DNA of 64,000 bases from the NCBI GenBank assembly GCA_024691425.1, contig JAILNQ010000123.1, positions 1 to 64,000 of the forward strand, in the 5' to 3' direction. The notes beneath the pieces are model-generated. The model did no database searches, was not told where the DNA came from, and saw nothing but the letters and a program-made list of their open reading frames with translations. The translations under genes were made by a program, and so were the position numbers. This DNA is from Lachnospiraceae bacterium (GTDB taxonomy: Bacteria > Bacillota > Clostridia > Lachnospirales > Lachnospiraceae). Position 1 is the first letter of the stretch, and each line of letters starts with the position of its first letter. This document shows positions 31,329 to 55,286 of this stretch, in pieces.

Positions 31329-31711
31329 CTGTCTCTCCTTACTATCTCGTCGAGCTCTTCAACGCTCTTTGAAAGGAACTCGGATGGCCTCACCGTCCTG
31401 TCATCCACGTAGAACCCGTGGCTTCCGGGCCAGGGCTTGCCGTAGATTATCTCATCATAAGGAATTTCCCATTTATCGAGCCATGCCAGAAGAACCTTCG
31501 CTGTATTCGCGTTAATGAGCCCTATGTTTCCGTTGTAGGAGTTCATGTTCCTGCTGGTCAGAAGTATTATCTTAGCTCCTCCCGCCTTGTACTCGCGGAT
31601 CTTTTCGACCATCTCGGCATAAGGAACGACGTCCTCGTATCTCTCATCTTCCTTTTTTATCGGGCACAGTGTCCCGTCCACATCAAAAACAAAAGTAAGT
31701 TGTTCGTACAT
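31316..31711 (-). CDS. Small HAD-like protein of a capsule-type cassette
   Basis: 131 residues from the ATG at 31711, which has GGAGA 6 bases upstream; an earlier frame start would overlap the kinase gene. Motif I FVFDVDGTL, motif II LLTSRN and a late VDDRT (motif IV) fit the HAD phosphatase family. The conserved GKPWPG is seen in capsular biosynthesis HAD proteins. Size suggests a stand-alone core HAD, C0 type. It sits between the kinase and nucleotidyltransferase and may dephosphorylate or edit the intermediate. That role is inference. Confidence 0.82.
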   Translation of the reverse strand: MYEQLTFVFDVDGTLCPIKKEDERYEDVVPYAEMVEKIREYKAGGAKIILLTSRNMNSYNGNIGLINANTAKVLLAWLDKWEIPYDEIIYGKPWPGSHGFYVDDRTVRPSEFLSKSVEELDEIVRRDRCRS

Positions 31712-31712
31712 C

Positions 31713-39220: not shown

Positions 39221-41227
39221 CTATCCGACCATGCTTTTTTTATTTCCTGCCAGAACGTAATTCGAGTGATCAAGTGAAAAGTTCGGGTTAAAATACGGAT
39301 CCCCGGCAGATAACACATCTTTCCACTTCTGTCTGAAAATCCCGCATTCCTTCTCGTAACGCTCGGCCTTGCTCTTTTCGGCGCTGCCGTCCACATCGCT
39401 TCCCCGCGACGCCGATTCATAGTGGAAAAGCTCTGCGAACGGCGTGAACACATTAAGAAGTCCCTTTTCGCGGAGCTTCAGGCAGAAATCTACGTCATTC
39501 AGCGCTATAGCAAGATCCTCGCTGAGTCCTCCGACCTCTTCGAACAGTGATTTTCTGACCATGAGGCATGCCCCGGTGACCGCGGAGACGTTCTGTGCAT
39601 AGCAGAGCCTGCCCATATAACCGAGATTCTCTTTCTCAAGCTTATAATGGGAATGGCCTGCCGTTCTGTGAGCGCCCATTCCGAGCACTATTCCGGCATG
39701 CTGTATCGTATAATCCGGATAATAGAGCATGCAGCCCGTTGCTCCGACATCGCTCCTTTGTGCATACATGAGAAGCTCTTCAATCCAGTTCCTCGTTATT
39801 ACCTCAGTATCATTGTTAAGAAGCAGAAGATACTCGCCCTCAGCAAAGCGCGCACCGTAGTTGTTCACTGCCGAATAATTGAATTCTCCTTCATACTCAA
39901 CAATCTTTACGCGCGGGTGCTTTGCAAGCGTCTCGTAGTAATTCCTGATCTCATCGGTCGTTGAATTGTTCTCTATCACTATTATCTCATAATTCTCATA
40001 TGAGCTTCTGTTCATTATCGATTCTATGCATCTCGTAAGGTCCGCTGCGTGATCCCTGTTAGGAATGAGTATGGATACGAGCGGCTCCCCGATCAGGGCA
40101 TACCTTATCCTGAATATAGTCTCGAACGCTCTCGTGCTCTCAATCCGAAAATCCTTAAATCCGCAGGCCGTAAGGTGTGCGGCTACCGCGCCTTTTGCCG
40201 CATCAATCGCATAGCTCTTGGCATTGATGTCAGAAGCAACAGACCCTGCATGAGAACGCCAGTAATACAGTATTTTCGGAACGTGCACGATATGCTCTGC
40301 AGCCTGTGTCAGCCGCAGTATCATGTCATGGTCCTGGCTGCCGTCGAATTCAGGACGGAACGTCCCGCACTTTTTAACTAATTCCCTGGAAAAGACTGAG
40401 AAATGACAGATATAGTTGTTCGCCCGCAGATTGTCCGGCGCAAAGTCCGGCTTAAAATGGAGCGTTATCATATGGTCTATGGATCTGCCTGAGAACGTCG
40501 TTTCATCGCAGTATATATAGTCCGCTCCCTCAGCGCATATGACTTTCATATACTCGTAGAGCACGGTCGGATGAATAATGTCATCATGGTCGAACAGTCC
40601 GATGTAATCGCCTGTAGCCATATCGAAACACTTATTGGTATTGCCGGAGATTCCGAGGTTTTCGGTCAGATGCTCGTATCTGATGCGCTCATCGCCGTAA
40701 GCTTTTACAACCTGTCCGACATACGCATGGGCATCATCCGAACCGTCCGCAAGGCAGAGCTCCCAGTTCGTATACGTCTGCGCGATGACCGAATCTATCA
40801 TTTCGCGCAGAAACTTCTCAGGCGTGTTGTATAGAGGCACGAGGATGCTGAACTTTATATCCTTTGCAAACTTCTCGGCGCGCTGTCCTGCCGCCTCTTC
40901 GGGGGTCGGCATCGAAAGCGTGCCGTAGCTCTTGTACGCCTTTATCTCTATGATCTTGCTCTTTATCTTTTCCTTTATGCCGGAAATGCTCCCATATCTC
41001 CTGACGCGGACGATGATGTTCTTGATATGGCTCCACACCAGCCTGAACGGATAAATGAGCTTCCATATCATTGACCCGCGGAGCTTGTCCATCTTGTAGT
41101 TCAGGTCTGCGATCTTAGCTTCCGCATCCGTAAGCTTTTCGGTCAGGTCCGCGTTCTTCCTGCGTTCCCTCTCGTACAGATCCCTGTAGTATTCATTCGT
41201 CTTTGACAATTCCTCTTCGCGGTTCAT
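39221..41227 (-). CDS. Two-domain GT2 glycosyltransferase
   Basis: 668 residues from ATG 41227 (GGGTG upstream; an in-frame GTG at 41236 is less likely). An N-terminal charged coiled coil (about 2-50) and a basic hydrophobic stretch lead to a first GT2 domain (about 125-370; FSILVPLYNTPEKFL, GLFDHDDIIH). A second follows (about 395-640; VSILIPNRDHAADL, LLNNDTEV, ALNDVDFCLKLREKG). Twin GT2 enzymes often add two sugars in turn and extend rhamnan or similar chains. It overlaps the next large GT2 gene and is in the ABC-exporter half of the locus. Confidence 0.9.
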   Translation of the reverse strand: MNREEELSKTNEYYRDLYERERRKNADLTEKLTDAEAKIADLNYKMDKLRGSMIWKLIYPFRLVWSHIKNIIVRVRRYGSISGIKEKIKSKIIEIKAYKSYGTLSMPTPEEAAGQRAEKFAKDIKFSILVPLYNTPEKFLREMIDSVIAQTYTNWELCLADGSDDAHAYVGQVVKAYGDERIRYEHLTENLGISGNTNKCFDMATGDYIGLFDHDDIIHPTVLYEYMKVICAEGADYIYCDETTFSGRSIDHMITLHFKPDFAPDNLRANNYICHFSVFSRELVKKCGTFRPEFDGSQDHDMILRLTQAAEHIVHVPKILYYWRSHAGSVASDINAKSYAIDAAKGAVAAHLTACGFKDFRIESTRAFETIFRIRYALIGEPLVSILIPNRDHAADLTRCIESIMNRSSYENYEIIVIENNSTTDEIRNYYETLAKHPRVKIVEYEGEFNYSAVNNYGARFAEGEYLLLLNNDTEVITRNWIEELLMYAQRSDVGATGCMLYYPDYTIQHAGIVLGMGAHRTAGHSHYKLEKENLGYMGRLCYAQNVSAVTGACLMVRKSLFEEVGGLSEDLAIALNDVDFCLKLREKGLLNVFTPFAELFHYESASRGSDVDGSAEKSKAERYEKECGIFRQKWKDVLSAGDPYFNPNFSLDHSNYVLAGNKKSMVG

Positions 41228-43256
41228 ATATATCACCCAGAGCCGCCCGGCAGCTCTTCAATCCAGTTTTTTTGCGGAGCATCACGCCGATCCTGTACCG
41301 CCGGTTCTCATCGATCGCATCGAACGGTATGGCGCATACGAATCCGGCCAGACTGACGTTTACGGCATCCGGAAAAGTTTCTGCCACGTCTTCTCTGTAC
41401 TTCGGGCTCGTTGCCGCGATTATGTACTCATTCGTTTCTGCTCCGTCATCATCGAGAGGTATGAGAACAATGAATTTTCGAACAAGTGCATTGTCCCATG
41501 AAAGCGAAATCCCCCATCCCTCGATGGTATACGCGTCCCCGGCATTCTCTGCGATCCCGCGCTCTATGCCGCAGCGGTCGATCGACATCATGACTTTCTT
41601 CGATTCCCTGCCGGGAGGCTTATTTGTAACCTTCACCTTATTGCGGAAGTCTGTCACCTGGTAGTCCGGAACTATGCCGCAGCCGATATTGACCGTATCC
41701 CGATCCAGCATGTATCCGTAAAACGGGTCCGTATGCTGCATGAGCCACGGATGCATCGAATACAGAAGGTCGCGCTCTGTCGAAAGCCTCTCCGACTTCA
41801 GATCGCTCATCGCGTCGGTGCCGCGCGCAAGCGACTCATGATGAGTCATCACACAGTCATTATCGACTACATTGTAATAGCCTGCCTCGAATAGGCGGAC
41901 GCACAGTTCAACGTCATTATAGCCGACCTTTATTCTATCACAAAACCCGCCTGTTTGATAGTATTTTTCCCTGCTGACCATGAGGCATGCGCCTGTTACT
42001 GCAAGCACATTCCATGCGAATCTGTTCCTGCAGTAGTAGTGCACCTTTCTGTCATCCGCTCCGGCAAGCTTGTGAGTCGGGCCTCGGTCTATCTCGGTCA
42101 CTCCGATATGCTGAATGCTCCTGTCATCGGGAAAAAGCAGCTTCGCGCCTACTGCCCCAACGTAACTCCTGTTTGCATATATGAGAAGCCTTTCGAGAAA
42201 TGAGTCCGATATCGCATCAACATCATCATTCATGAACAGAAGAAAACTGCCCTTCGCCCTGTCGGCTCCGGTATTGCACATCATGGAGAAATTGAATTCC
42301 ATCGGTTCGTAGATGTATGTTCCTCTTCCCCCGGGAAGCTGAGTCACGTATTTTTCGGCGATATCACGGTTTTCCTCGTTGCTGCCGTTATCGACAACAA
42401 TGATTTCATACGGCACATTTCCCGCATTCAGCCTTATGTTCCTGATGCATTCCTTCAGCACCCTCGGCTGATCTTTTGACGGAATGATGATCGAAACGAC
42501 ACATTCCTTTTCTTTATCTTTTCCTCTTCCCTTTACCGTTGCCTCGGGGATCACGTTTATCCCGCGCCTGTTCTCTGCGGCCTCACGGCACAGAACGTAC
42601 CCCGGGCGCTGATATTTCTCGTAAAGCGCCGCGAATATCTCATTGTCGCTCACTTCACCTTCTTTTTCGATCAGCTTCCTAAGGTCCCTGTGATACAGTA
42701 TCTGAGGCGTATGCACTATGCTTCTCGCGCGCTCCATGGCACGCAGGAGAAAATCATAGCACCTCACGCTGTCTCCGATCTCCGGCGACTGCTTTATTGC
42801 AAGAACGCTCCTCGCGAATGACGTTTTTATGGCAAAGCATGTTTCTATGTAGGGAAATGATACGATCGTATCAGGTGAATACTCGGGTTTTCTCCACGGC
42901 GTGCGAAGCGTCCTTATCCTGACGTTGATATCGGAAAGGTCTGCGTTCACATCCTCGGTAAAATCCTCATCGCAGTATATTATGTCCGCACCATCGGCGC
43001 TGCCGATGAGTCTTTCTATAAGATCAGGCTCGTACACTCCGTCACGGTGGACAAAGACCACGTACTCTTCTGTTATTCCGTCAAAATTGAGTACGTTGGC
43101 GCCATCGTCAGGAAACAGTACTATGGCTCCCGATGCATTTGGTGCGGATGCCGCCGGGATTTTCGTGCCGTATACTATTTCATAGCCGTATGGCATCGTC
43201 TGCTTGAACAGCTCTTTTTTATATGCGGATATACACTTGTCTTTGGAAACACTCAT
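41193..43256 (-). CDS. Large GT2 glycosyltransferase with C-terminal extension
   Basis: 687 residues. The N-terminal 240 look like a degenerate GT2 domain (FPDDGANVLNF, YVVFVHRDGVYEPDL, YCDEDF). The active GT2 domain (about 250-500) has SIIIPSKDQPRVLKECI, VVDNGSNEENRD, LFMNDDVDAI and VGYNDVELCVRLFEAGY. The last 120 residues are a beta-rich tail I do not recognise. It overlaps the methyltransferase-kinase gene by 4 bases, so it is coupled to chain termination. Specificity unknown. Confidence 0.87.
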   Translation of the reverse strand: MSVSKDKCISAYKKELFKQTMPYGYEIVYGTKIPAASAPNASGAIVLFPDDGANVLNFDGITEEYVVFVHRDGVYEPDLIERLIGSADGADIIYCDEDFTEDVNADLSDINVRIRTLRTPWRKPEYSPDTIVSFPYIETCFAIKTSFARSVLAIKQSPEIGDSVRCYDFLLRAMERARSIVHTPQILYHRDLRKLIEKEGEVSDNEIFAALYEKYQRPGYVLCREAAENRRGINVIPEATVKGRGKDKEKECVVSIIIPSKDQPRVLKECIRNIRLNAGNVPYEIIVVDNGSNEENRDIAEKYVTQLPGGRGTYIYEPMEFNFSMMCNTGADRAKGSFLLFMNDDVDAISDSFLERLLIYANRSYVGAVGAKLLFPDDRSIQHIGVTEIDRGPTHKLAGADDRKVHYYCRNRFAWNVLAVTGACLMVSREKYYQTGGFCDRIKVGYNDVELCVRLFEAGYYNVVDNDCVMTHHESLARGTDAMSDLKSERLSTERDLLYSMHPWLMQHTDPFYGYMLDRDTVNIGCGIVPDYQVTDFRNKVKVTNKPPGRESKKVMMSIDRCGIERGIAENAGDAYTIEGWGISLSWDNALVRKFIVLIPLDDDGAETNEYIIAATSPKYREDVAETFPDAVNVSLAGFVCAIPFDAIDENRRYRIGVMLRKKTGLKSCRAALGDIYEPRRGIVKDE

Positions 43257-45601
43257 TTTTCTTCCGAAATCTCCTGCTGTCCGGGATAAGCCCTTACAAA
43301 TCCCTCCGGCAGGATATCTTCCTTAATGATCCCGATCTTTCTCTTAAGGCGGTACATGAACTTACGCTTTTCCTGAAGTTTCTCCTCTTCGATCTTCTTT
43401 AAGACAGAAAGCATGCTGTCATAGAAAGGCTTCTCGATCATCGATACCTGATACTTGACTTCTATCGATCTGGCATTCTGCGGAATGCCGACGATCACGA
43501 TCTGGGCATCATTCGTATCAAAGATGTACGTTTTCTCTGAAAGCTTATGCCCGTTGACTATGACATCGATAACATCACATTTTGCCCCATTATCGAGCGT
43601 ATATGTCAATGTTTCTATCGATACAAGGCACGGATACTCGGTAGGGTCCACCCTCAGCGAATGTATGAAACGTTCGAACGGTATGAGAAGGGATACATGG
43701 CCTTCGCTCACCTTTGCGGTAACCCCTATCTGATTTTCGGAAGTGAAGTTCTTGCCCCTCGAGAAATATATCTTCGGTGTATCGAGATTTTTCAGGTATG
43801 CACCGTGCTTAACGATGTTATCGATCATTATCGTCGATGTGGGCATCATGACACGCATCACTTCAAGCGATGCCGCTCCGCCTATGATATACATCTGGAA
43901 TGAATGCTCCATCTCCGCGAACAGCATCCTCTCGCCTATGTCTATGGAACACAGACTGTAGACATCGAGACCTTTGCGGGAAAGATACATCAGGAATCCG
44001 TCATCCTCGCAGTTGCGGAAGTGATAGAAAAGAGCCCTGTATATGATGAATTTGATCGGGACCGAAAAATCCCACACCCATTCATAGTCGAGCATCGTCC
44101 ACTCGCCCTCTTCCCTCTCGGCCTCATCAAGAACGATGTTGGAAAATATCATGTCGTAGTTGCACGGCGAAAGGGCAAGATATTTCTTCTTGAAATCCCT
44201 TCTTCCGAATATCTCATCGAACTTGGCCGAGCGCTTGAACTCGGAAATTCCCGAACACGAATTGAGCCTGCTGCAGTATTCGAGTATGACAGCTTCCATC
44301 CGGGAATACTTTCCGTCATTCTCGAGCTCCTTCAGATGATCCTCGAGAGTTATGCCCGAAATATAATCGAACTTGACCGAATCCTTTGCCTTCGAAGCAA
44401 CTCCGGCGAGCAGCATGCCTCTCTCCCTGCCCTTTATGAGTTCGCAGTTAACGGGCTTAAGACCGGTATTTGCGAACTGCTCGGAAAGTATCTCGAAGCT
44501 GCCCTTCATCTTATCGATATGGGGATTTGCATGCGTAGAAAGTGCACTCTTGTGAACTGTCAGCTCACCCTCGGCAGTTCTGCCTATGACCGTGCACACT
44601 CTGTAGTTCTCGGTCCTCTCGTTGCTGTACTTAGCGAACAGCGGAAGGCTGGTCAGCTTCTGCCATCCCTCCTGCGGCGATGCTATCACGATGAACGAGT
44701 TTGCGAATTCAGGGAAGCGGTCTTCCTCTATCATCGCGTCAAACGCTTTCGTCTCATCAAAAAGCACCATTCTGTCCGAATCGTAATTCCGGATGTTCGT
44801 GTTAAGCTCTCCGACCCCGGGAAGTCTTTCATCGGAATAAATCGTATGTGCGAGTTTGTAATCAGGATACGGATAATAGAATCTGTTATCACCGAGGCCT
44901 TCTTCGGCAAGAAGCCGCTCAAGCGCTTCCTTAGAAAACGTCCTGACTCCCGCCTCGGGAGGATATCCGACGATTCCTCCGAAATATTCCCCGAGATGAT
45001 CCTCCTTGCATCCTGCAAAATACTTAAGCCCTAAACGGTTCTCTATGGCAATTACTATTTTCCCGTCCGGCTTCAGATGCTGCTTGAGTATGTCGAGCAT
45101 GCGGTTATACGGCTTTTCACCCTTGATGTAGGACTGGGCGTATTCAAGCACGCCGATCAGCGTGATATAGTCATATTTTTCGGTAAGGCCGGACTCGACA
45201 TCCTCGAAATTTCCGACCATTATCGTCAGGTTTGCATATTCCTTGTTCCTGTATGCGTTGATGAGGCTCCGTTTCTTTGAAAGCTCTACACATGTCACTT
45301 TTCCGGCAAGCCTCGCGAGCATCCCTGTCACTGCACCGCAGCCGCTGCCTATCTCAAGAACGCTGTCTTCCGCCTTTATCGGAAGCCATCCGATGACATT
45401 CTCCCTTATGTAGGACAGGTGGTACATGACCGACCATGATTTTGACTCCTCGATATATTTCTCATATTCAAGGGACGTATGGGATCTGACAAAATCAAGC
45501 AGCCTGTCTTCCGCAGCTCCCTCGGAATACAGGTCTTCCCCGCCGTAATATGTATAGTCGAGAACGACATTTCCTATGCTTTCGCGTATTTTACCGGACA
45601 T
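43253..45601 (-). CDS. Methyltransferase with a predicted kinase domain (WbdD-like)
   Basis: 782 residues. The N-terminal SAM methyltransferase (about 55-270) has motif I VLEIGSGCGAVTGML (81-95) and post-I VELSKK. The middle (about 330-530) has features of a protein-kinase-like fold: a possible nucleotide Lys351 in TVHKSAL, a hinge-like DYISGITLEDHL (412-423), a catalytic-loop-like NYDMIFSNIV (Asp483, Asn488), and a metal-site-like LDYEW (Asp505). A beta region (about 600-725) and a C-terminal coiled coil (about 730-760) follow. E. coli WbdD caps O-antigen with the same domain order. The kinase call is my motif reading and needs a fold check. It overlaps the Wzt-like gene by 11 bases. Confidence 0.75.
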   Translation of the reverse strand: MSGKIRESIGNVVLDYTYYGGEDLYSEGAAEDRLLDFVRSHTSLEYEKYIEESKSWSVMYHLSYIRENVIGWLPIKAEDSVLEIGSGCGAVTGMLARLAGKVTCVELSKKRSLINAYRNKEYANLTIMVGNFEDVESGLTEKYDYITLIGVLEYAQSYIKGEKPYNRMLDILKQHLKPDGKIVIAIENRLGLKYFAGCKEDHLGEYFGGIVGYPPEAGVRTFSKEALERLLAEEGLGDNRFYYPYPDYKLAHTIYSDERLPGVGELNTNIRNYDSDRMVLFDETKAFDAMIEEDRFPEFANSFIVIASPQEGWQKLTSLPLFAKYSNERTENYRVCTVIGRTAEGELTVHKSALSTHANPHIDKMKGSFEILSEQFANTGLKPVNCELIKGRERGMLLAGVASKAKDSVKFDYISGITLEDHLKELENDGKYSRMEAVILEYCSRLNSCSGISEFKRSAKFDEIFGRRDFKKKYLALSPCNYDMIFSNIVLDEAEREEGEWTMLDYEWVWDFSVPIKFIIYRALFYHFRNCEDDGFLMYLSRKGLDVYSLCSIDIGERMLFAEMEHSFQMYIIGGAASLEVMRVMMPTSTIMIDNIVKHGAYLKNLDTPKIYFSRGKNFTSENQIGVTAKVSEGHVSLLIPFERFIHSLRVDPTEYPCLVSIETLTYTLDNGAKCDVIDVIVNGHKLSEKTYIFDTNDAQIVIVGIPQNARSIEVKYQVSMIEKPFYDSMLSVLKKIEEEKLQEKRKFMYRLKRKIGIIKEDILPEGFVRAYPGQQEISEEK

Positions 45602-46955
45602 CGCTTACCTCTTGCCCTGTTTCAGTGTTAACTGTGACTATTGAATTCATGTCGTAGAACCCTGTCGTGTTCTTCGATGAAATGACCGTCAGGTTGAATA
45701 TATCATACAGTCTGTGATAGACGGTGAATTCTCCGTCCCTGTAGCCTACGCAGCCGAGCGACACAAGGTATTCTCCTCCCTGCAGTGACATGTTCTGTGT
45801 AAAAGTCACCGTACATACATCGCCTTTTGAGCGCTTGCCCGTGGTGATCTTTTCGAACATCGTATTGGTCCCGGTTATCTCGGTGCCCTGCATGTTCTTG
45901 AAAGATACCGCGAATATCGGATCCTGCACCGTATCGTTGAACTTGACCTTCACCCTTACCGTAAAATCATCGCCTTTGATGATCGTGTTGGTTATCGTGC
46001 CTCCGTCGTCATAGGCGCAGAAGTCCACGAACTCGGCGAGATTGCTGCCGTATTCATCGGCATTCGGGTTCAGCTGCATCAGATCCTTCCACTTTGTCCC
46101 GCCGGCGCCGCCCGTATCTTTCATTATCTGCGGCTGCGAATCGAGCTGTCCGACGAGCACTTTCTTGTACATGTCGATTATCTCTTTCGGCTCGCCTTCT
46201 CCGAGCTTGTGACCCTTTTCAAGAAGGATAACCCTGTCGCAGTATTTGCTGATGCTTCCGAGGTCATGGCTTACGAACAGTATAGTCTTGCCCTGCTTTT
46301 TGAAATCCTCGAACTTCCTGTAGCACTTGTTCTGGAAGAACACATCTCCGACCGACAGAGCTTCATCGACAATGAGTATCTCCGGGTCGATGTTTATCGC
46401 GACCGCGAATGCAAGGCGCACGAACATTCCGCTCGAATACGTCTTGACCTTCTGGTTCACGAATTCTCCGATGTCAGCGAACTCAAGTATCGACTCAAGC
46501 TTATCGTCTATTTCTTTCTCCGAGAATCCGAGCATCGTTCCGTTCAGATAGATGTTCTCCATCCCAGTGAATTCCATGTTAAAGCCCGCACCGAGCTCAA
46601 GCAGGGCAGAAATGCGCCCGTTTATCTTAAGTTCCCCCGCAGTCGGGGACAGCACTCCGGTAATGATTTTCAGTATCGTGGACTTACCGGAGCCGTTCGT
46701 ACCGATTATGCCGACGGTCTCGCCCTTATGTACATCAAAGCTTACGCAGTCCAAGGCAAAATGCTCTCTTGAGCGGATGTTCCTTCCGATGTGGAGAGCT
46801 TCTTTGAGCCTGTCACGGTTCCTGTCGTAAAGCTTGTACACTTTCGAAACATTCTTTACGCTTATCGCCAGCTCATCGCTTATCCTTCCGGCGCTCACAT
46901 GGTCCGTATGTCCTGCAGTATCCTTTTGTCTGATCGCATCTAGAAAATCAGTCAT
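45591..46955 (-). CDS. Polysaccharide ABC exporter ATPase with C-terminal beta domain (Wzt-like)
   Basis: 454 residues. The ATPase domain (about 30-275) has Walker A GTNGSGKST (85-93), signature YSSGMFVRLAFA and Walker B LIVDEALSVGD, the form of the Wzt/TagH/RfbE subfamily. The C-terminal domain (about 290-454) is beta-rich, with KGDDFTVRVKVKF, GGEYLVSLGCVG and a late VYHRLYDIFNLTV. This matches the Wzt C-terminal carbohydrate-binding domain that reads the chain's terminal modification before export. It is followed by the putative capping methyltransferase-kinase. Confidence 0.92.
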   Translation of the reverse strand: MTDFLDAIRQKDTAGHTDHVSAGRISDELAISVKNVSKVYKLYDRNRDRLKEALHIGRNIRSREHFALDCVSFDVHKGETVGIIGTNGSGKSTILKIITGVLSPTAGELKINGRISALLELGAGFNMEFTGMENIYLNGTMLGFSEKEIDDKLESILEFADIGEFVNQKVKTYSSGMFVRLAFAVAINIDPEILIVDEALSVGDVFFQNKCYRKFEDFKKQGKTILFVSHDLGSISKYCDRVILLEKGHKLGEGEPKEIIDMYKKVLVGQLDSQPQIMKDTGGAGGTKWKDLMQLNPNADEYGSNLAEFVDFCAYDDGGTITNTIIKGDDFTVRVKVKFNDTVQDPIFAVSFKNMQGTEITGTNTMFEKITTGKRSKGDVCTVTFTQNMSLQGGEYLVSLGCVGYRDGEFTVYHRLYDIFNLTVISSKNTTGFYDMNSIVTVNTETGQEVSDVR

Positions 46956-46964
46956 GTCCCATCC

Positions 46965-47951
46965 TTATAAAACATCAGCGAAGTGCACCTTCAGGCGTTT
47001 GAAGATGATAGCTCCGAACGCGAAAACGCACATCGTGAGAATCCAGAAATAAGCCGTGGAATAAAAGTTCTCCCAGAACCAGACTTTATCTATGAAAGCA
47101 TCCCTGTAGCCCTCAACGATATAGTTCATAGGGTTCAGCTTGAACACTATCCGAAGCCTCGGCGGAAGCGTCGTGATATTCCACAGAATAGGCGTCGCCC
47201 ATATGCCGACCTGAAGAAGTATCGAGATTATCTGTCCGAGGTCCCTGAAAAAAACGATTATCGAGCAAGTAATGTAGCACAGCCCCAGCACGAATATGAA
47301 CATGCAGCCTGTGTAATAGAATATCTGAAGCGTATAAAGGTCGGGGTAATACCCGTAGCATGAGAACAGTATTATGGTAAATGCAACGAAGAAAACATGG
47401 ACGAATACCGCCGAGATGATCTTGATGATCGGAAGTATGCTTATTTTGAACACTACCTTTTTGACGAGGTAATTGTATTCAAGAAGCGCTCCCGTTCCGT
47501 TTGACAACGCCTCGGAAAAGAAGAACCACGGCACTATTCCGGCGATGAGCCAGAGTATGTAAGGTATCGTGATGTCACCCTTTACCGCAACTGCCCTTGA
47601 GGGAAGCGCCACTGAAAAGACGAACCAGTACAGAAGCACCGTGATGACAGGCTGTACGAATGCCCAGACGATACCGAGGTATGACCCGGCGTATCTCGTT
47701 TTGAAATCATTCTTCGAAAGCTTCCAGATAAGCTGCCTGTTCTGGAAAAGCTCAACCGGAAGAATGACTATCTTGTCATATTTCAACAGGAATACCGTAT
47801 AGATCGCGACAAGAATGATGCAGGAAATGACCTTTTTGATCATTTCCTCCTTAGGGTCCGCAAACGGGTTATGATGAAAAATGATATATGCGAGAAGCGC
47901 CGCTACGAGCACAGTGACGACGGCAACCACCGGTTTTTTTTTCGTCATCAC
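46965..47951 (-). CDS. Polysaccharide ABC exporter permease (Wzm-like)
   Basis: 328 residues. The typical ABC-2 permease core begins near residue 70 with QLIWKLSKNDFKTRYAGSYLG and has six helices, including the conserved LNPMNYIVEGYRDAF near the end. About 70 extra N-terminal residues carry two additional helices (about 8-26 and 38-57), beyond the usual 260-residue Wzm. It moves lipid-linked polysaccharide across the membrane with the adjacent ATPase. It overlaps rfbC by 4 bases. Confidence 0.92.
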   Translation of the reverse strand: MMTKKKPVVAVVTVLVAALLAYIIFHHNPFADPKEEMIKKVISCIILVAIYTVFLLKYDKIVILPVELFQNRQLIWKLSKNDFKTRYAGSYLGIVWAFVQPVITVLLYWFVFSVALPSRAVAVKGDITIPYILWLIAGIVPWFFFSEALSNGTGALLEYNYLVKKVVFKISILPIIKIISAVFVHVFFVAFTIILFSCYGYYPDLYTLQIFYYTGCMFIFVLGLCYITCSIIVFFRDLGQIISILLQVGIWATPILWNITTLPPRLRIVFKLNPMNYIVEGYRDAFIDKVWFWENFYSTAYFWILTMCVFAFGAIIFKRLKVHFADVL

Positions 47952-48493
47952 AGCTCCTTAAGCCTAGGCCATTTTTTATCCTTCTCAGAGAATATGAGCT
48001 CCATGTCATCCGCAACGGGCCAGTCGATTCCTATGTCAGGATCGTTGTAGATTATCCCGCCCTCATCATTCGGATGATAAAGATCCGTGCATTTGTATGT
48101 GAATTCTGCATAGTCTGAAAGCACGAGGAATCCGTGCGCGAAGTTCTTCGGGATGAAGAACATTTTCTTGTTCTCTTCGGAAAGCCTGATCCCGAACCAT
48201 TTCCCGTATGTTTCCGAGCCCGGGCGCATGTCGACCGCGACGTCGAATACTTCGCCTTTTATGACACGCACAAGCTTATCCTGCGGATGGGCTATCTGGA
48301 AATGAAGGCCGCGGAGCACGCCCCTTTTCGAAGCCGACTGATTATCCTGCACGAAAGCGCATGTAATCCCTGCCTCCTCAAAATCAGCTATATTGTACGT
48401 TTCCATGAAGTATCCCCTCTCATCCGAAAACACCTTCGGGGTTATTACGAGAAGACCCTCTATGGGCGTGGTCTCAACGGCTATCTTTCCCAT
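47948..48493 (-). CDS. rfbC: dTDP-4-dehydrorhamnose 3,5-epimerase
   Basis: 181 residues from ATG 48493, which has AAGGAG upstream (the ATG at 48499 touches the ribosome site). It is a cupin enzyme that epimerises dTDP-4-keto-6-deoxyglucose. Visible are DERGYFMETYN, QDNQSASKRGVLRGLHFQ with the catalytic His, and FIPKNFAHGFLVLSDYAEF. It works with RfbA and RfbB encoded just upstream. No dTDP-4-dehydrorhamnose reductase (RfbD) gene is present in the window. Confidence 0.95.
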   Translation of the reverse strand: MGKIAVETTPIEGLLVITPKVFSDERGYFMETYNIADFEEAGITCAFVQDNQSASKRGVLRGLHFQIAHPQDKLVRVIKGEVFDVAVDMRPGSETYGKWFGIRLSEENKKMFFIPKNFAHGFLVLSDYAEFTYKCTDLYHPNDEGGIIYNDPDIGIDWPVADDMELIFSEKDKKWPRLKEL

Positions 48494-48509
48494 TGCCATT
48501 CTCCTTATA

Positions 48510-51131
48510 TCAGTATCTTAAAAAGCTCTTGTTCATGTCCACGTTACCGCTTATACCGCTAACGCTTCCCTTTGATGTATACTGCCATATATCATAGCGT
48601 CCGCTGTATGTCGGACCTTCGGCTCTGTACTGTGCGAGCCAGATCTTGCATGACAGTGATGAAGTGTTGATCTTCTCAGTAAGCCATGTCTTGTTCGCAT
48701 AAAGTCCGGGCGTATATCCGGCAGATGCTATCGTCTTGCAGAATGCCTGTATGTTCTCCGTGCGCTGGCTTGCGGATAATGTGTTATATCCAGGTCTTGA
48801 TGATGACTCTACGTCAAGGAATACCGGATAGTTGAGTCCGTATCCTCCGCACAGTGCTGCGCACATACTTGCCTCTTCAACCGCTTCGGCCTCATTCAGC
48901 GCCGTGGAGAAGAAGTATACACCGACCTTGAGCCCTGCACTCTTTGCGCCCTTGATATGGCTCTTGAAGTAAGGATCCTCAATGAGCGCTCCGGTCGAAG
49001 CACCGCGGTATCCGCATCTTATGATGACAAAATCGATTCCCGAAGCTTTAACCGAACCCCAGTTGATGCTCGGCTGATATTTGGATACGTCTATTCCGAG
49101 CACGCCGGAGCCTGTATCGAGTGTACCGTCGGAATTGAAGTGGTACGAAACTCCGCCGATAACCTGATCTCCCGTAACAAACTCATGATCCTTCGTGTAG
49201 TAATATGTCTTGCCGTCTATGTTCTGCCAGCCGGTGTATATGAATCCGGCGATCCTTCTGTAGAACACGCTGAAGTTTCCGCTCCTTAAATCCGCGATCT
49301 TGGCAAGCCTGTATGTTCCGTCCTCGTTGACGTAGAGCTTGTTCTTGTTCGAATCGAAAAGCTGTGCTTCGGGCTTGTATTTATCTATCTCACTCGGAGG
49401 AGTAAGGTCGACCGGCGTCGGTGTCGGTGATTCCGTCGGCGTAGGTGTCGGCGTCGGTGTATCCGTAGGCGTCGGCGTCGGTGTGGGGGTAGGTGTATCC
49501 GTCGGTGTCGGGGTCGGTGTAGGCGTCGGCGTATCCGTAGGTGTCGGCGTCGGTGTATCCGTAGGCGTCGGCGTCGGATCATCCGTATCATCCGTCGGTG
49601 TATCTGAAGTCTCGTTCAGCTGCACTTCCGTTGCAACAAGCCTTCCTGCCGGCGCAAGTCCGATGTTCGCCATCGTAGCTCCCGATGAAAAACCGACCGA
49701 ATCGGCCACCTTTCCGAGTGCGGCAAACAATCTGCTGAATATCGATGCTATTATCTCTGTCTTGGACAGATCGACCGTAGCTTCCTCGTACGATTCTCCG
49801 ACTTCCTCGACTGTTGATTCGACGAACTCGACAGTATCCTTCGGTGCGGTTCCCGTCTCGACATCGGCATGCTTATTGCCGTTATCCTCGACGGCCGCGT
49901 TGACTTCGCTCTCCTTCTTGATCTCGTCCTTTATGTTCGCGATGACCTTGTATTCAACCTTGGCTTTTACGCTGACCTTCTGTCCTACTGTCGGATAAAC
50001 ATAACCGCTCAATGAATCGGATTCCGTTATGGTAACTGAGTAATCGCCTGCGCTCATACCCGTCAGGTGGATTATTCCGTCCTCATCCTCATCCTCGTAG
50101 CTGCTTTCCTTATCATCCTTATCAGTGACGGTTATTCCCCATTCCAGTCCTTTGACAAGGGTGTCATCCTCATCAACGAGCTTGACCTTTAAGTCCTTCT
50201 CAACGCTCGTGAGTATCAGCGAGAGCATCTTTCCTTCGCTGTCCGTCATCTGCTCGGCGGCTTCTTCCATTTCCACTTCCTCGGATAAAGCCTCCGTATC
50301 ATCATATGCAATGAGCGAGGCATCATCCACGAAATAAGGAAGATTGGCCATAGCCATCGCTTTATTCTGCTCGCCGCGGTAGTCTGCGTATACCGTAGTG
50401 GTCATTACGGATGTGATGACGATAACTGCTGCCATCGCAACCGCGCCCCACTGTACGGGAGTGAGCTTTTTCAGCCTGTCCGTTAAGCTCTCTTCTTCCG
50501 TATCAGGCGCATTGTCGTCCATCTCGGCCTTCGGAACACTATCATATCTCCACTTTGCTGATTCTTTTCTGAACTCGGACGGACCGTCTTTTTTCGTAGG
50601 AAGAATTCCGGCCTTCCTGTACTTCTCAAGACCTTTTTTGTGTCTGAATGAATCGCTCTGATGTGTGGGGCCTGCGTGCTTTTTCTTCTTCTTTACCGAA
50701 GAAGGCTCATGCGTGCTCTTTGCCGCAGTCTTCCCCGCAGATTTGCGTTTTTTCTTCAGTTCCTCGGATCTGATGATGATCTTCTCATCAACGGATCTGC
50801 GTATAGCCGCCTCGGGATCATCCGCCGGCATTTCAGGCTCTTCTGCCGCAACAGGCACAGGATTCTTTTTCTTCTTCGGCCTATCATAAGCGTAGAAGGC
50901 ATCTACTGCATCTTTTACGCCGTCGAGATCGGACGTGTCGACCTTGAGTCCTTCGGAAACGATCTGAGAGATCGTCTCGTTCACGATATCATCCGAGCCG
51001 GGCTCATTTCTGCCTGCCGGATATCCGGAACGCTTTTTACCTTCGCTTCTGTCCATCTGCTCGGACAGCTGCACCCAGTCCATCTGAGTGTTCTGTTCAG
51101 CTCCCCTGCCGTCGTACCTGGTTTTTTTCAT
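48510..51131 (-). CDS. Membrane-anchored GH25 muramidase with long cytoplasmic N-terminus
   Basis: 873 residues. Residues 1-226 are hydrophilic, Lys/Glu/Ser-rich and probably cytoplasmic. A transmembrane helix follows at about 227-249. The outside part has a SpaA/Cna-like beta domain with LKVKLVDEDDTLVKG (about 310-400), a Thr/Pro repeat (about 520-580), and choline-binding-type repeats (GWQNIDGKTYYYT). The C-terminal GH25 domain (676-873) has catalytic motifs GIDVSKYQ and VFLDVESS. It likely cuts or remodels peptidoglycan at the cell surface. The cytoplasmic half suggests signalling or a partner inside. It sits between rfbA and rfbC; AAGGGGA precedes the ATG. Confidence 0.88.
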   Translation of the reverse strand: MKKTRYDGRGAEQNTQMDWVQLSEQMDRSEGKKRSGYPAGRNEPGSDDIVNETISQIVSEGLKVDTSDLDGVKDAVDAFYAYDRPKKKKNPVPVAAEEPEMPADDPEAAIRRSVDEKIIIRSEELKKKRKSAGKTAAKSTHEPSSVKKKKKHAGPTHQSDSFRHKKGLEKYRKAGILPTKKDGPSEFRKESAKWRYDSVPKAEMDDNAPDTEEESLTDRLKKLTPVQWGAVAMAAVIVITSVMTTTVYADYRGEQNKAMAMANLPYFVDDASLIAYDDTEALSEEVEMEEAAEQMTDSEGKMLSLILTSVEKDLKVKLVDEDDTLVKGLEWGITVTDKDDKESSYEDEDEDGIIHLTGMSAGDYSVTITESDSLSGYVYPTVGQKVSVKAKVEYKVIANIKDEIKKESEVNAAVEDNGNKHADVETGTAPKDTVEFVESTVEEVGESYEEATVDLSKTEIIASIFSRLFAALGKVADSVGFSSGATMANIGLAPAGRLVATEVQLNETSDTPTDDTDDPTPTPTDTPTPTPTDTPTPTPTPTPTDTPTPTPTPTPTDTPTPTPTPTESPTPTPVDLTPPSEIDKYKPEAQLFDSNKNKLYVNEDGTYRLAKIADLRSGNFSVFYRRIAGFIYTGWQNIDGKTYYYTKDHEFVTGDQVIGGVSYHFNSDGTLDTGSGVLGIDVSKYQPSINWGSVKASGIDFVIIRCGYRGASTGALIEDPYFKSHIKGAKSAGLKVGVYFFSTALNEAEAVEEASMCAALCGGYGLNYPVFLDVESSSRPGYNTLSASQRTENIQAFCKTIASAGYTPGLYANKTWLTEKINTSSLSCKIWLAQYRAEGPTYSGRYDIWQYTSKGSVSGISGNVDMNKSFLRY
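49411..49577. repeat. Thr-Pro coding repeat inside the muramidase gene
   Basis: A run of imperfect short repeats (GGCGTCGGTGT and relatives) encodes the TPTPTPTD spacer between the membrane-proximal and wall-binding domains. Such tracts can change in length by slippage, so this stretch may vary between strains. It is a coding repeat, not a CRISPR array. Confidence 0.85.
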
Positions 51132-51191: not shown

Positions 51192-52061
51192 CTACAGTCC
51201 GTTCGCTACATCGACGAGATACTTTCCGTAGTCCGTCTTCAGCAGCGGTTCAGCCAGCTTCAGCAGCTGCTGCCTGTCTATAAAATTCCTTCTGAATGCT
51301 ATTTCCTCTATGCACGAAATGTACATTCCCTGACGCTTCTGCACGGTCCTTATGAAGTCTGCCGCATCAAGGAGCATGTCGTGATTTCCGGTATCGAGCC
51401 ATGCAAATCCTCGCCCCAGCGTCTCGACGAAAAGCTCGCCGCGCTCAAGGTATGCATTGTTGACCGATGTTATCTCTATCTCGCCTCTTGCCGAGGGCTT
51501 AACGTCTTTTGCTATCTTAACTACGTCATTGTCGTAGAAATACAGTCCGGGAACCGCATAGTTCGACTTGGGATTTTCGGGCTTCTCCTCGATTGATATG
51601 GCCTTTCCGTTCTCATCGAATTCAACGACTCCGTATTCCTTCGGGTCTCTTACATAGTAACCGAAAATCGTTGCGCCCTTCTCTCTTTCCGCTGCGGTGC
51701 GCAATACCTTTGAGAAGCTCTGTCCGTAAAAGATGTTGTCACCGAGTATCAGGGCAACCCTGTCCGAACCTATGAATTCCTCGCCGATGATGAACGCATC
51801 CGCAAGTCCTCTCGGCGTTTCCTGCACTGCATACGACATTGAAAGCCCTAACTGGCTTCCGTCTCCGAAAAGCTCCCTGAACGTCGGCAGATCTCTCGGT
51901 GTTGATATTATGAGGATCTCCCTTATATGCGCAAGCATCAGTATCGAGAGCGGATAATATATCATCGGCTTGTCATACACAGGCATCATCTGCTTGGACA
52001 TCGCCTTTGTCAGAGGGTAGAGTCTCGTTCCCGAACCTCCGGCAAGAATTATACCTTTCAT
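51192..52061 (-). CDS. rfbA: Glucose-1-phosphate thymidylyltransferase
   Basis: 289 residues, the usual RmlA length. It makes dTDP-glucose. The N-terminal [20 protein letters not shown] is the NTP loop, followed by [25 protein letters not shown] and [16 protein letters not shown]. It overlaps rfbB by 4 bases and receives glucose-1-phosphate from the phosphoglucomutase encoded further on. It is followed by the GH25 gene after about 60 bases. Confidence 0.97.
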
Positions 52062-53131
52062 TTGTACATTTCCTCGTAGTATTTCTGATAATCGCCGCTA
52101 GTTACATGCTCCATCCACTCGGTATTGTCAAAATACCAGCGGATAGTCTTCCTGATGCCTTCAGGGAACATCGTCTCGGGTTCCCATCCGATCTCGGCTC
52201 TTATCTTATCCGGTGCGATCGCATATCTCCTGTCGTGGCCTTTTCTGTCCTCAACATATGTTATGAGGTCATAGTTTATATGATCCTGTCTAGGATCATC
52301 CGCAGGAAGCATTTCCTTGATCGTATCGATGATGATCTTGACGATCTCGATGTTCTGCTTCTCGTTGTGACCGCCGATATTGTACTTCTCTCCGAAACGT
52401 CCCTTCTCTATAACCATGTCTATTGCCTTGGCATGATCCATGACATAGAGCCAGTCGCGGACGTTTTTGCCGTCACCGTAGACCGGAAGCTTCTTTCCCG
52501 AAAGCACGTTGTTGATAATGAGCGGGATCAGCTTTTCAGGGAACTGATAAGGCCCGTAGTTATTGCTGCAGTTAGTGATAAGCGCCGGGAAATGATAAGT
52601 ATCAACGTACGCCTTCACCATGAAATCCGAAGAAGCCTTGCTCGCCGAATAAGGACTGTGCGGATCATAAGGAGTCGTCTCATAGAAATAAGTCCCTTCA
52701 TCCGTGAGCGAACCGTACACCTCGTCAGTTGATACATGAAGGAACTTCTTTCCTTCCTTGAATCCTTCTCCGTCCGCCCAGGCGCACCTAGCGCAGTTCA
52801 GCATATTAAGAGTTCCGATGACGTTCGTCCTCGCAAATATGCCGGGATCGCGTATGCTTCTGTCAACATGTGATTCCGCGGCAAAATGAACGACTATGTC
52901 CACATCATTCTTGGCAAAAATATCCGATATCGCTTCAGTATCACATATATCGGCTTTTATGAATGTATAATCGGGATTGTCCTTAAGGTCCGACAGGTTC
53001 TCGAGATTGCCTGCATAAGTCAGGAGATCCACGTTTATGATCCTGACGGAGCCGGCATGCTTTTCAAACATGTAGTGAATGAAGTTAGAGCCTATAAAAC
53101 CTGCCCCTCCGGTCACAAGATAAGTTTTCAT
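52058..53131 (-). CDS. rfbB: dTDP-glucose 4,6-dehydratase
   Basis: 357 residues, an extended short-chain dehydrogenase. NAD-binding [15 protein letters not shown] (about 7-21) and active-site Thr in [10 protein letters not shown] fit RmlB, as do the [10 protein letters not shown] catalytic Tyr/Lys and [18 protein letters not shown]. It converts dTDP-glucose to dTDP-4-keto-6-deoxyglucose for RfbC. It is the first gene after the 53.2-kb terminator, so a promoter should lie in 53132-53190, but none is clear by eye. Confidence 0.97.
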
Positions 53132-53979: not shown

Positions 53980-55286
53980 TATCTGTACCCCGCTTTGGTA
54001 ACCTCATTGTTATCAAGGATACCCTTTATGTCTATTATCACTTTGCTGCTGTTGTCACCGCTCTTAAAGTATGAATCCCAATCGGCAATCGTCTTTTTTC
54101 TGTACTCATCGTGGGCTACCGCAAGCACTATGCAGTCCGCATCCTTGAGTTTATCTTCTCCGCTTAAGTCGTATCCGTAAGCTTTCTTCACTTCCGCCGG
54201 ATCTGCCCATGCATCCGCAAGGACTGGTTTCATTTCGTACTGCTGGAGGTGGCTCAATATCTCCATGATCTTCGAATTGCGCACGTCCGGGCAGTTTTCC
54301 TTGAAAGTCGCCCCAAAGAAAACGATTTTCGCATCCCTTACCTGCTTGCCCGCGAGCACGAGCTGTTTTACTATCTGGTCTCCGACGTATCCGGGCATGT
54401 CATCGTTTATCTGGCGTCCCGCAGAGATTATCCTCGAATGATATCCGAGCCTCTCGGCCTCATAAACGAAATAGTACGGATCGACGCCTATGCAGTGTCC
54501 TCCGACGAGTCCCGGACGGAAGCCGAGCGCGTTCCACTTCGTGTTCATCGCATCTATGACTTCGTTCGTGTCTATTCCCATCTTGTCGAATGCCATCGCA
54601 AGCTCGTTGATGAAGGCGATGTTTATATCCCTCTGCGAGTTCTCGACGACCTTCGCGGCTTCCGCTACTTTTATGCAGCTTGCCCTGTGAACGCCCGCCT
54701 CGATGACGAGTTCATAAACGTTCGCTATCTCTTCAAGCGTCTCGGCATCCATTCCCGATACGATCTTTTTGATGTTCTCAAGTCGGTGCACCTTATCGCC
54801 CGGATTGATCCTCTCAGGCGAATATCCGACCTTAAAATCAGTTCCGCACTTCAGACCTGATTCCCTCTCGAGTATCGGGACGCATATATCCTCGGTAACT
54901 CCGGGATACACCGTTGATTCATATACAACGATAGAGCCCGCCGTCAGGTTCTTTCCGAGTATCTCGCTCGCGGATTCAACAGGATAGAGGTCAGGCGTTT
55001 TATCCTGATTTATAGGCGTCGGAACGGCAACTATGTGGAACTTTGCACTCTTAAGGTCCGCGGGATCCGATGTGAACTCGACAGTTGACTTTGCGATAGC
55101 TTCGTCACCTACTTCTTTCGTCGCATCTTTACCGGACTTATATGCCTCTATCTTTTCGGCGTTAAGGTCAAACCCGACAACCTTGACTTTCTTCGCAAAA
55201 GCTACCGCTATAGGCATCCCGACATATCCGAGGCCTACGAGCGATATCTTTTCCTTCCCGTTTTTTATGTCTTCATAAAGACTCAT
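53967..55286 (-). CDS. UDP-sugar 6-dehydrogenase (WbpA/TviB-like)
   Basis: 439 residues, UDP-glucose/GDP-mannose dehydrogenase family. Rossmann GLGYVGMPIAVAFA near 18-31, a central helical domain, catalytic Cys in VGGHCIGVDPYYF (near 266), and the C-terminal FGATFKENCPDVRNSK. The sequence fits the VipA/TviB and WbpO group that oxidises UDP-N-acetylhexosamines to uronic acids rather than the UDP-glucose group, but this cannot be fixed by eye. It supplies an acidic sugar to the flippase-dependent part of the locus. It overlaps the Wzx-like gene by 4 bases. Confidence 0.9.
   Translation of the reverse strand: MSLYEDIKNGKEKISLVGLGYVGMPIAVAFAKKVKVVGFDLNAEKIEAYKSGKDATKEVGDEAIAKSTVEFTSDPADLKSAKFHIVAVPTPINQDKTPDLYPVESASEILGKNLTAGSIVVYESTVYPGVTEDICVPILERESGLKCGTDFKVGYSPERINPGDKVHRLENIKKIVSGMDAETLEEIANVYELVIEAGVHRASCIKVAEAAKVVENSQRDINIAFINELAMAFDKMGIDTNEVIDAMNTKWNALGFRPGLVGGHCIGVDPYYFVYEAERLGYHSRIISAGRQINDDMPGYVGDQIVKQLVLAGKQVRDAKIVFFGATFKENCPDVRNSKIMEILSHLQQYEMKPVLADAWADPAEVKKAYGYDLSGEDKLKDADCIVLAVAHDEYRKKTIADWDSYFKSGDNSSKVIIDIKGILDNNEVTKAGYRYWRL

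Follow-up and report, generated by a model that had tools for sequence, protein, structure and literature searches.

The window, by which we mean the whole 64,000-nucleotide stretch analysed here from a Lachnospiraceae bacterium (contig JAILNQ010000123.1), carries a gene for a 782-aa protein in which a SAM methyltransferase domain is followed by a kinase fold, flanked by genes for an ABC exporter, glycosyltransferases and rhamnose-type sugar enzymes. The features of the locus are:

39221..41236, minus strand: twin-GT2 protein, predicted polymerase, with an N-terminal heptad stretch (aa 22-60)
41193..43256, minus strand: GT2 glycosyltransferase; its start and the end of the kinase gene share 4 bases
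43253..45601, minus strand: methyltransferase-kinase, predicted chain terminator, 782 aa
43337..43432, minus strand: short C-terminal helices/coiled-coil stretch of the 782-aa protein (aa 724-755), not conserved in the family (model and heptad score)
43436..43780, minus strand: domain of beta strands by the secondary structure of the model, at aa about 608-722; it probably corresponds to the Ig-like domain, a putative CBM, of ORF6^O7
43790..44647, minus strand: APH-like kinase domain (aa 319-604) with K351, D483, N488, D505, E507 and W508 (residues, profile, AlphaFold2/Foldseek)
44672..45601, minus strand: class I SAM methyltransferase domain (aa 1-310; Pfam Methyltransf_23 match at aa 75-236 and SAM-site residues)
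45591..46955, minus strand: Wzt, an ABC ATPase with a C-terminal Wzt_C domain (45648-46061), 454 aa (Pfam)
46965..47951, minus strand: Wzm-type ABC-2 permease
47948..48499, minus strand: rfbC, dTDP-4-dehydrorhamnose 3,5-epimerase
51192..52061, minus strand: rfbA-type nucleotidyl transferase
52058..53131, minus strand: rfbB-type dehydratase

The sizes that an earlier note on this DNA had given for the two central reading frames (782 aa for 43253-45601 and 454 aa for 45591-46955, both minus strand) were correct. The Wzt gene and the start of the methyltransferase-kinase gene share 11 bases. That note's description of the Wzt as an ABC ATPase with a Wzt-C-like domain was borne out by Pfam, which matched ABC_tran at 2e-23 and, over residues 299-436, Wzt_C at 1.5e-40 (138.9 bits, the cut-off being 30.4). 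The best solved relatives of this Wzt were 8dku and 7k2t, which we take to be the Aquifex aeolicus WzmWzt transporter; they matched across residues 31-425, including the C-terminal domain. A single rmlD match above the cut-off was found outside the window on the same contig (G000:C98:89940-90797).

The methyltransferase part of the 782-aa protein was recognised by Pfam (Methyltransf_23, residues 75-236, 2.8e-10), and alignment via a Pseudomonas homologue placed Y25, Y60, G85, G87, E106 and Y154 where ORF6^O7 has its SAM-site residues; 39 of the 71 aligned homologues have Asp at position 106. No kinase was recognised in the protein by Pfam, the APH family matching the kinase region in just 2 of the 71 aligned sequences (best 0.018), so the kinase call required other evidence. 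A PDB sequence search with the 782-aa protein gave neither a kinase nor WbdD among its 22 matches, which, apart from one RNA polymerase subunit (0.31), were methyltransferases or small methyltransferase-like proteins. When a profile of the kinase region was used in hmmsearch of the PDB, JAK1 was matched at 2.3e-5, with K351 placed over the Lys of that kinase and D483 to N488 over its RDLAARN loop, and kinases were also matched by the full-alignment profile (best 60 of 188 matches). Structure prediction and a fold search of the kinase region, the check that the earlier note had suggested, returned a kinase fold: the AlphaFold2 model of residues 314-604 alone had a mean pLDDT of 88.5, and its top Foldseek match was APH(3')-Ia (6.7e-6); the best 50 of 1605 matches included macrolide kinases, Lck and Src as well. 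The resemblance of this model to APH is a distant one, with TM values of about 0.4-0.5.

We collected 105 related loci, all by similarity to the whole 782-aa protein. Alignment A1 has 71 rows, the window protein and 70 of these loci, near-duplicates and truncated, split or fused ORFs having been removed by hand; a separate residue check covered nine split or fused ORFs, and all 105 loci were checked for the catalytic set. K351, D483 and D505 were invariant in the 71 aligned proteins, at identities down to 35%, and each was kept in 104 of the 105 loci (101 distinct sequences), the exceptions being a broken gene without K351 (L043) and a gene cut at a contig end without D483 and D505 (L100). Across the 105 loci Lys351, Asp483, Asn488, Asp505, Glu507 and Trp508 were conserved wherever present, and the catalytic set was also retained where the kinase is a separate ORF. 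The JAK1 profile match, the APH-like predicted fold and the three conserved residues uphold the claim of a kinase-like domain; with a kinase fold found and K351, D483 and D505 retained, neither of the findings that the earlier note had named as telling against its kinase call was obtained. The order of a SAM methyltransferase and then a kinase in one protein is confirmed.

The protein groups with ORF6^O7-N of Klebsiella pneumoniae O7 rather than with WbdD, the link being made via a Pseudomonas plasmid protein. ORF6^O7-N has the same parts in identical order, a methyltransferase, an APH/AmiN-like kinase that was likewise missed by annotation and, as the probable counterpart of the beta strands here, a beta domain, and its system shares with the window a rhamnose setting, an ABC transporter and a linked twin-GT2 polymerase. 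The homology was traced by proxy, through Pseudomonas and Citrobacter relatives. In the Pseudomonas asturiensis protein all six published SAM residues of ORF6^O7 (Y28, Y66, G91, G93, E112, Y158; PMC11231755) occur at identical numbers, and its catalytic Asp, with which D483 aligns, is at 443, not 441; the Citrobacter relative, in which the numbering is shifted, has none of the six by number. In hhalign comparisons with two Gram-negative O7-type proteins the kinase and beta domain were matched at 97.1% (E 5.5e-11, residues 321-666 of the 782-aa protein), and the kinase region alone at 96.8% (2.8e-10). The Pseudomonas cluster parallels the window module by module, with identities of 28% for Wzm, 36% for Wzt (residues 26-451), 34% for the methyltransferase-kinase (16-383) and 40% for the twin GT2 (6e-121), in which residues 129-663 match the C-terminal GT part of a Pseudomonas terminator-polymerase fusion. 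BLAST identities to the Gram-negative proteins (33-34%) covered the methyltransferase and N-lobe only, so the kinase here could act on another substrate than ORF6^O7 does. Since the K351 column holds Arg and His in two proteobacterial relatives and the D505 column holds Glu in Citrobacter, the active site is not the same in every detail. Unlike ORF6^O7, the window locus has a Gram-positive host, and most Lachnospiraceae loci have a separate GT2 polymerase gene that appears to carry the coiled coil. The words 'Firmicutes' and 'Gram-positive' do not occur in the main text of PMC11231755.

Gene order was similar throughout the collection. Wzt_C lay directly upstream of the methyltransferase-kinase in 99 of the 105 loci (median gap 14 bases), and Wzm was upstream in all 71 loci with more than 2.6 kb of upstream sequence (within 2.6 kb in 54, at 2.8-4.4 kb in 17). 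Where the upstream sequence exceeded 7.5 kb, rfbA/C was found in 57 of 60 loci, and where the downstream sequence exceeded 6 kb, a GT2x2-like ORF was present in all 58. In Lachnospiraceae loci the terminator and twin-GT2 polymerase genes are often separated by another GT2 gene. Of 200 genomes from the host's family, 164 matched the whole protein at the default threshold, many weakly, and 95 did so at E <= 1e-20 (92 with Wzt_C and 3 without it, against 29 with Wzt_C only and 76 with neither). Because whole-protein matches can be methyltransferase only, co-occurrence was recounted from matches to the kinase profile (E <= 1e-10). The profile was found in 104 and Wzt_C in 121 of the 200 genomes: 100 had both, 4 the kinase only, 21 Wzt_C only and 75 neither (Fisher p 3e-30). 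Two named relatives, Acetatifactor muris DSM 23669 (L066) and Lachnospiraceae bacterium GAM79 (L062), had one match each. Outside the family 8 of 398 genomes of a phylum sample matched the whole protein at 1e-20, chiefly over the methyltransferase part.

Between the kinase and the C-terminal helix the model has beta strands at about residues 608-722, a domain that the earlier note had missed. Its D652-P653 is invariant in the aligned homologues, and the hhalign match to O7-type proteins runs past the kinase into it, to residue 666; judged from the model, it is probably the Ig-like domain of ORF6^O7. The C-terminal coiled coil announced in the earlier note does exist here, in a short form of about 30 residues (helices 724-746 and 748-755 in the model, heptad stretch 736-764), but is not a family feature: by a simple custom heptad score, a stretch after residue 550 was present in just 9 of 71 homologues. 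Among partner GT2x2 proteins 56 of 67 had a heptad stretch, compared with 269 of 1340 in the shuffled control. To judge from these sequences, the terminator in Lachnospiraceae would usually end before the coiled coil, which appears to sit on the twin-GT2 polymerase. In a natural fusion from a Lachnospiraceae MAG (L069:8008-12105) the methyltransferase, kinase and twin GT2 are joined in one protein, and the coiled-coil stretch lies between modules.

The likeness to WbdD of E. coli O9a and K. pneumoniae O3 (PMC3482155) that the earlier note had drawn holds for the kind of protein and for domain order. WbdD too has the methyltransferase before the kinase in one protein, a Wzt with a cap-binding module and a presumed methyl-phosphate cap; it does not appear to be the closest relative, since the kinase here looks APH-like, as in ORF6^O7. 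The window protein also differs in its extra beta domain, in its rhamnose genes as against a mannose polymer, and in its short, unconserved coiled coil, that of WbdD being long (C-terminal, residues 460-708). That it is a true orthologue, a WbdD-type kinase and methyltransferase acting on a mannose polymer, is most improbable. WbdD (4azt) did rank second in Foldseek with the whole model (3.8e-9, 534 alignment columns), and the domain order is shared, but superposition of the whole model was poor (TM 0.17/0.28), and WbdD was absent from the best 50 of 1605 matches of the kinase-only search, which APH enzymes led, from the 22 sequence matches and from the best 60 of 188 profile matches. We lowered this candidate on the APH-led fold search and the poor superposition; the dTDP-rhamnose type of the nearby sugar genes and the clear profile homology to O7-type proteins also speak against it.

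It is very unlikely that capping depends on the methyltransferase alone, as in O8-like or Geobacillus-like systems, with the kinase domain a degenerate acceptor-binding module. Such a reading would suit a kinase that Pfam does not recognise, the two proteobacterial relatives that have not kept K351, and matches outside the family that span the methyltransferase alone, such as that in G418 (residues 13-307, in a 300-aa frame). Yet at each catalytic position 104 of the 105 loci have the residue, the exceptions lying in incomplete genes; the set is intact in stand-alone kinase ORFs as well, and ORF6^O7 cannot do without its equivalent Asp, the D441A mutant being inactive (PMC11231755). Internal decoration of the polymer with methyl-phosphate, the Wzt domain recognising another feature, we regard as unlikely. 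The cluster has other modification-type genes at 30600-33104 (HAD-like, nucleotidyl-transferase-like and a second APH-like kinase, all weak Pfam matches), but the characterised relative ORF6^O7 acts on a terminal sugar, phosphorylating and then methylating position 3 of the terminal rhamnose (PMC11231755), and the adjacency and co-occurrence of Wzt_C fit a cap reader.

We therefore favour, as the likely reading, an O7-type methyltransferase-kinase chain terminator for a rhamnose-rich, ABC-exported glycan whose cap is read by Wzt. It rests on what this analysis observed: the domains and predicted fold, the conservation of catalytic residues, the order and co-occurrence of the genes, and the homology to O7-type proteins. 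In the cytoplasm the twin-GT2 protein (39221-41236) and other glycosyltransferases would extend a glycan that is lipid-linked and probably rich in rhamnose. Phosphorylation of a hydroxyl on the last sugar by the APH-like kinase domain would then stop elongation, and the N-terminal domain would next add a methyl group to the phosphate; the beta domain that follows the kinase may serve to hold the glycan. Wzt_C of the adjacent exporter would read the cap, so that only finished chains leave via Wzm. The N-terminal coiled coil of the polymerase may set chain length, which would require its pairing with the terminator or docking there. Substrate, glycan, cap chemistry, cap reading and ruler are what we infer. 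Of the methyltransferase-kinase/Wzt-C partnership put forward in the earlier note, a chain-terminating pair is the best explanation on sequence grounds, and its capping and chain-length control remain predictions. Counting against a terminator are the 4 of 104 kinase-bearing genomes with no Wzt_C match, the lack in most homologues of the coiled coil expected on terminators (present in 9 of 71), the remote APH likeness, the non-uniform active site and the sparse matches outside the family.

The Gram-positive setting is less exceptional than the earlier note had implied. In the excerpts of PMC2943079 the WsaE methyltransferase domain of Geobacillus stearothermophilus, which is fused to glycosyltransferases, is thought to cap an S-layer glycan exported by Wzm/Wzt, and the methyl cap is predicted to be read by Wzt. 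That system, like the window, is Gram-positive, with a rhamnose glycan and ABC export; it differs in its 2-O-methyl cap and S-layer glycan, and no kinase is mentioned in those excerpts. Given this precedent for methyl capping with ABC export, the window system would be a widespread variant and not wholly novel. Cap reading by Aquifex aeolicus WzmWzt was demonstrated with 3-O-methyl-mannose, according to the excerpts of PMC9445017; that system is Gram-negative, and its methyl cap is without phosphate. Among the matches listed from the open-access literature on Gram-positives or Lachnospiraceae, Geobacillus came up and there was no methyltransferase-kinase in Bacillota.

More tentatively, about half of Lachnospiraceae may make a rhamnose-rich surface glycan with a methyl-phosphate cap that licenses its length and export, by a split machine whose ruler coiled coil is on the polymerase and not on the terminator, and whose terminator, kinase and polymerase modules have repeatedly been fused and split. 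A methyltransferase-kinase trick known from some Gram-negatives appears common in a large gut Gram-positive family, with a Pfam-invisible kinase domain as a standard component of these gene clusters. This predicts a single defined end-group, methyl-phosphate, on the surface glycans of many gut Clostridia, and with the enzyme, the reader and the likely polymerase named, chain-length control becomes testable in a large, mostly uncharacterised Gram-positive group. Rhamnose-rich glycans of Lachnospiraceae are biologically relevant, to go by the excerpts of PMC12413058, in which glucorhamnans of the family member Ruminococcus gnavus stimulate immune cells.

The 782-residue protein (43253-45601, minus strand) matched 13 Pfam families, all of them methyltransferase types and none a kinase, and the best 25 of its 34 NCBIfam matches were likewise methyltransferases only. 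The earlier note had nevertheless placed kinase-like elements after the methyltransferase, and these were borne out by invariant residues, a profile match and a fold match. We aligned 71 hand-picked homologues (the window protein and those of 70 of the 105 related loci), from which we had dropped near-duplicates as well as ORFs that were incomplete, split or fused, and found K351, D483, N488, D505, E507 and W508 invariant (71/71). Each of the six was present in 104 of the 105 loci (101 distinct sequences), so that the loss of Lys351, Asp483 or Asp505, which the same note had named as contrary evidence, was not seen; the sole gaps fell in incomplete genes, at K351 in the broken gene of L043 and at the other five residues in L100, whose ORF is cut at a contig end. 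D483 and N488, with four residues between them and D505 following, have the spacing of a kinase catalytic loop and metal site. A profile of the kinase region matched JAK1 in hmmsearch (2.3e-5), with K351 and D483/N488 falling on the corresponding kinase residues. The proposed check by structure prediction and Foldseek also gave a kinase fold: the AlphaFold2 models were confident (pLDDT 91.3 for the whole protein, 88.5 for the kinase domain alone) and the kinase model alone matched APH(3')-Ia (6.7e-6); the best 50 matches further included macrolide kinases, Lck and Src. With the whole-protein model WbdD, the terminator of Escherichia coli O9a and Klebsiella pneumoniae O3, came second (3.8e-9), with a poor global superposition (TM 0.17/0.28).

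According to the JBC paper on K. pneumoniae O4 and O7 (PMC11231755), the O7 terminator, ORF6^O7, consists of a methyltransferase, an unannotated 223-residue AmiN-kinase-like domain, an Ig-like domain, a coiled coil and a pair of GT2 modules. It adds phosphate, and in part also methyl, at position 3 of the terminal rhamnose, a reaction lost in D441A. Our comparison to ORF6^O7 was made through a proxy, a Pseudomonas plasmid protein matching the window protein at 4e-40. The proxy is laid out in a matching way, as a terminator part followed by heptad stretches at 721-788 and then by two GT2-like parts, and carries the six published ORF6^O7 SAM residues at identical numbers, with its catalytic Asp at 443 as against 441; the numbering of a Citrobacter relative is shifted. 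Module by module, the Pseudomonas cluster matched the window genes at 28% (Wzm), 36% (Wzt), 34% (terminator) and 40% (twin-GT2). When the 71-homologue profile was compared with the kinase of the Pseudomonas and Citrobacter proteins and what follows it, the probability was 97.1% (E 5.5e-11, window residues 321-666); for the kinase alone it was 96.8% (2.8e-10). Both proteins keep D483, N488, E507 and W508; the K351 column holds Arg and His, and Citrobacter has Glu at D505. Because of the cluster matches, the profile homology and the residues kept, we file the window protein with the O7-type terminators, probably working like WbdD: of the earlier description as WbdD-like, the proposed mode of working is supported and the family is not supported. 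As a separate observation, an O7-type terminator shares the Citrobacter braakii plasmid pF217-3 (L108), typed as conjugative, with a cluster of dTDP-rhamnose genes, Wzm and Wzt.

The assembly totals 2.56 Mb in 127 contigs, of which contig 98 carries the window. The closest relatives of the window in the named genome collection are mostly Lachnospiraceae MAGs from rumen and gut, and the host is accordingly taken to belong to that family. The genes form a compact minus-strand run of rfbB, rfbA, a GH25 protein, rfbC, Wzm, Wzt, the 782-residue protein, a GT2 and the twin-GT2, with overlaps of 11 bases between the Wzt and 782-residue genes and of 4 bases between the latter and the next GT gene. The single rmlD match above cut-off was on the same contig, and therefore the dTDP-rhamnose pathway is nearby. 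Other features of the cluster and its surroundings are as follows.

48510-51131, minus strand: long GH25 muramidase that carries a choline-binding-like repeat and a SpaA-like domain, encoded within the glycan operon between rfbA and rfbC
55283-56764 and 59849-61231, minus strand: Wzx-type flippase and bacterial sugar transferase, adjoining the ABC system
30600-33104, minus strand: a further, separate APH-like kinase (Pfam APH 0.013, under cut-off), beside a HAD-like gene and a nucleotidyl-transferase-like gene

The flippase and sugar transferase suggest that the cluster also holds a second glycan pathway, of the Wzx type. The group around the second kinase presumably resembles a LicA/LicC-style decoration module.

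An adjoining Wzt-type exporter with a carbohydrate-reading domain, as also claimed before, recurred across the related loci: a Wzt_C-matching Wzt lay directly upstream of the terminator in 99 of 105 (median gap 14 bases), the remaining six being L081, without a Wzt_C match, and five with a match beyond the distance limits. Twin-GT2-like ORFs were found in 58/58 loci with >6 kb downstream, rfbA or rfbC in 57/60 with >7.5 kb upstream, and Wzm in all 71 having enough upstream DNA, 54 of them within 2.6 kb. In the other 17 (e.g. L031, L033 and L062) Wzm lay further upstream, 2.8-4.4 kb from the terminator gene, and did not adjoin Wzt, and therefore an extra stretch of DNA separates the two.

Among 200 genomes of the host family Lachnospiraceae, the window's own included, the kinase profile was found in 104 (E <= 1e-10); 121 had a Wzt_C match (E <= 0.001), 118 of these above cut-off. 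Both occurred in 100 genomes, the kinase only in 4 (G076, G090, G186 and G188), Wzt_C only in 21 and neither in 75 (Fisher p 3e-30, a value inflated by shared ancestry of the genomes). The Wzt_C match was weaker (2.3e-34 or worse, a split noticed post hoc) in 20 of the 21 Wzt_C-only genomes; in the last, G170, the methyltransferase match is cut at a contig end. In the phylum sample the whole protein matched at 1e-20 in 12/398 genomes; 8 of the 12 lie outside the family and align mostly through the methyltransferase part.

The solved structure 8dku, whose organism we take to be A. aeolicus, matched the window Wzt at 2.6e-79 (residues 31-425) and was taken as its best solved relative. The A. aeolicus transporter is described as reading a glycan cap (PMC9445017, in part). 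By analogy with it and with ORF6^O7, the glycan, with its sugar, modified position and cap all predicted, would likely be polymerised first, then phosphorylated and next methylated as in ORF6^O7, and finally its cap would be read by Wzt and the chain exported. Capping of glycans that leave through ABC exporters is well established, and terminal modification has already been described in Gram-positives, with a methyl cap in Geobacillus and glyceric acid phosphate in Paenibacillus alvei (PMC2943079, in part).

Nine loci with unusual layout were inspected, and all retained the six catalytic residues. Methyltransferase and kinase were separate ORFs in seven, in two of which (L080 and L087) the kinase ORF runs on into a GT2x2-like part; L069 and L085 have all modules in one ORF. 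In L069:8008-12105, from a Lachnospiraceae MAG, methyltransferase, kinase, heptad/coiled-coil stretch and twin GT2 are fused in the K. pneumoniae O7 order in a Gram-positive. By eye, the stretch inspected in L085:1-3144 has no obvious coiled coil after the kinase region. By a simple heptad score of our own, a heptad stretch preceded the GT domain in 56/67 twin-GT2 proteins, against 269/1340 in a shuffled control made for that set only, and followed residue 550 in 9/71 terminators. From these counts and the L069 order, the linear module order seems to be kept across the family, with the gene mostly cut ahead of the coiled coil. Whereas the coiled coil sits on the terminator in WbdD and ORF6^O7 (PMC3482155 and PMC11231755, each in part), it appears to be on the twin-GT2 protein in most Lachnospiraceae loci, where it may act as a ruler. 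Among the papers listed in searches of the open-access literature, none described a methyltransferase-kinase of this type from Bacillota; its breadth in Lachnospiraceae and the apparently shifted coiled coil set it apart from the known forms.
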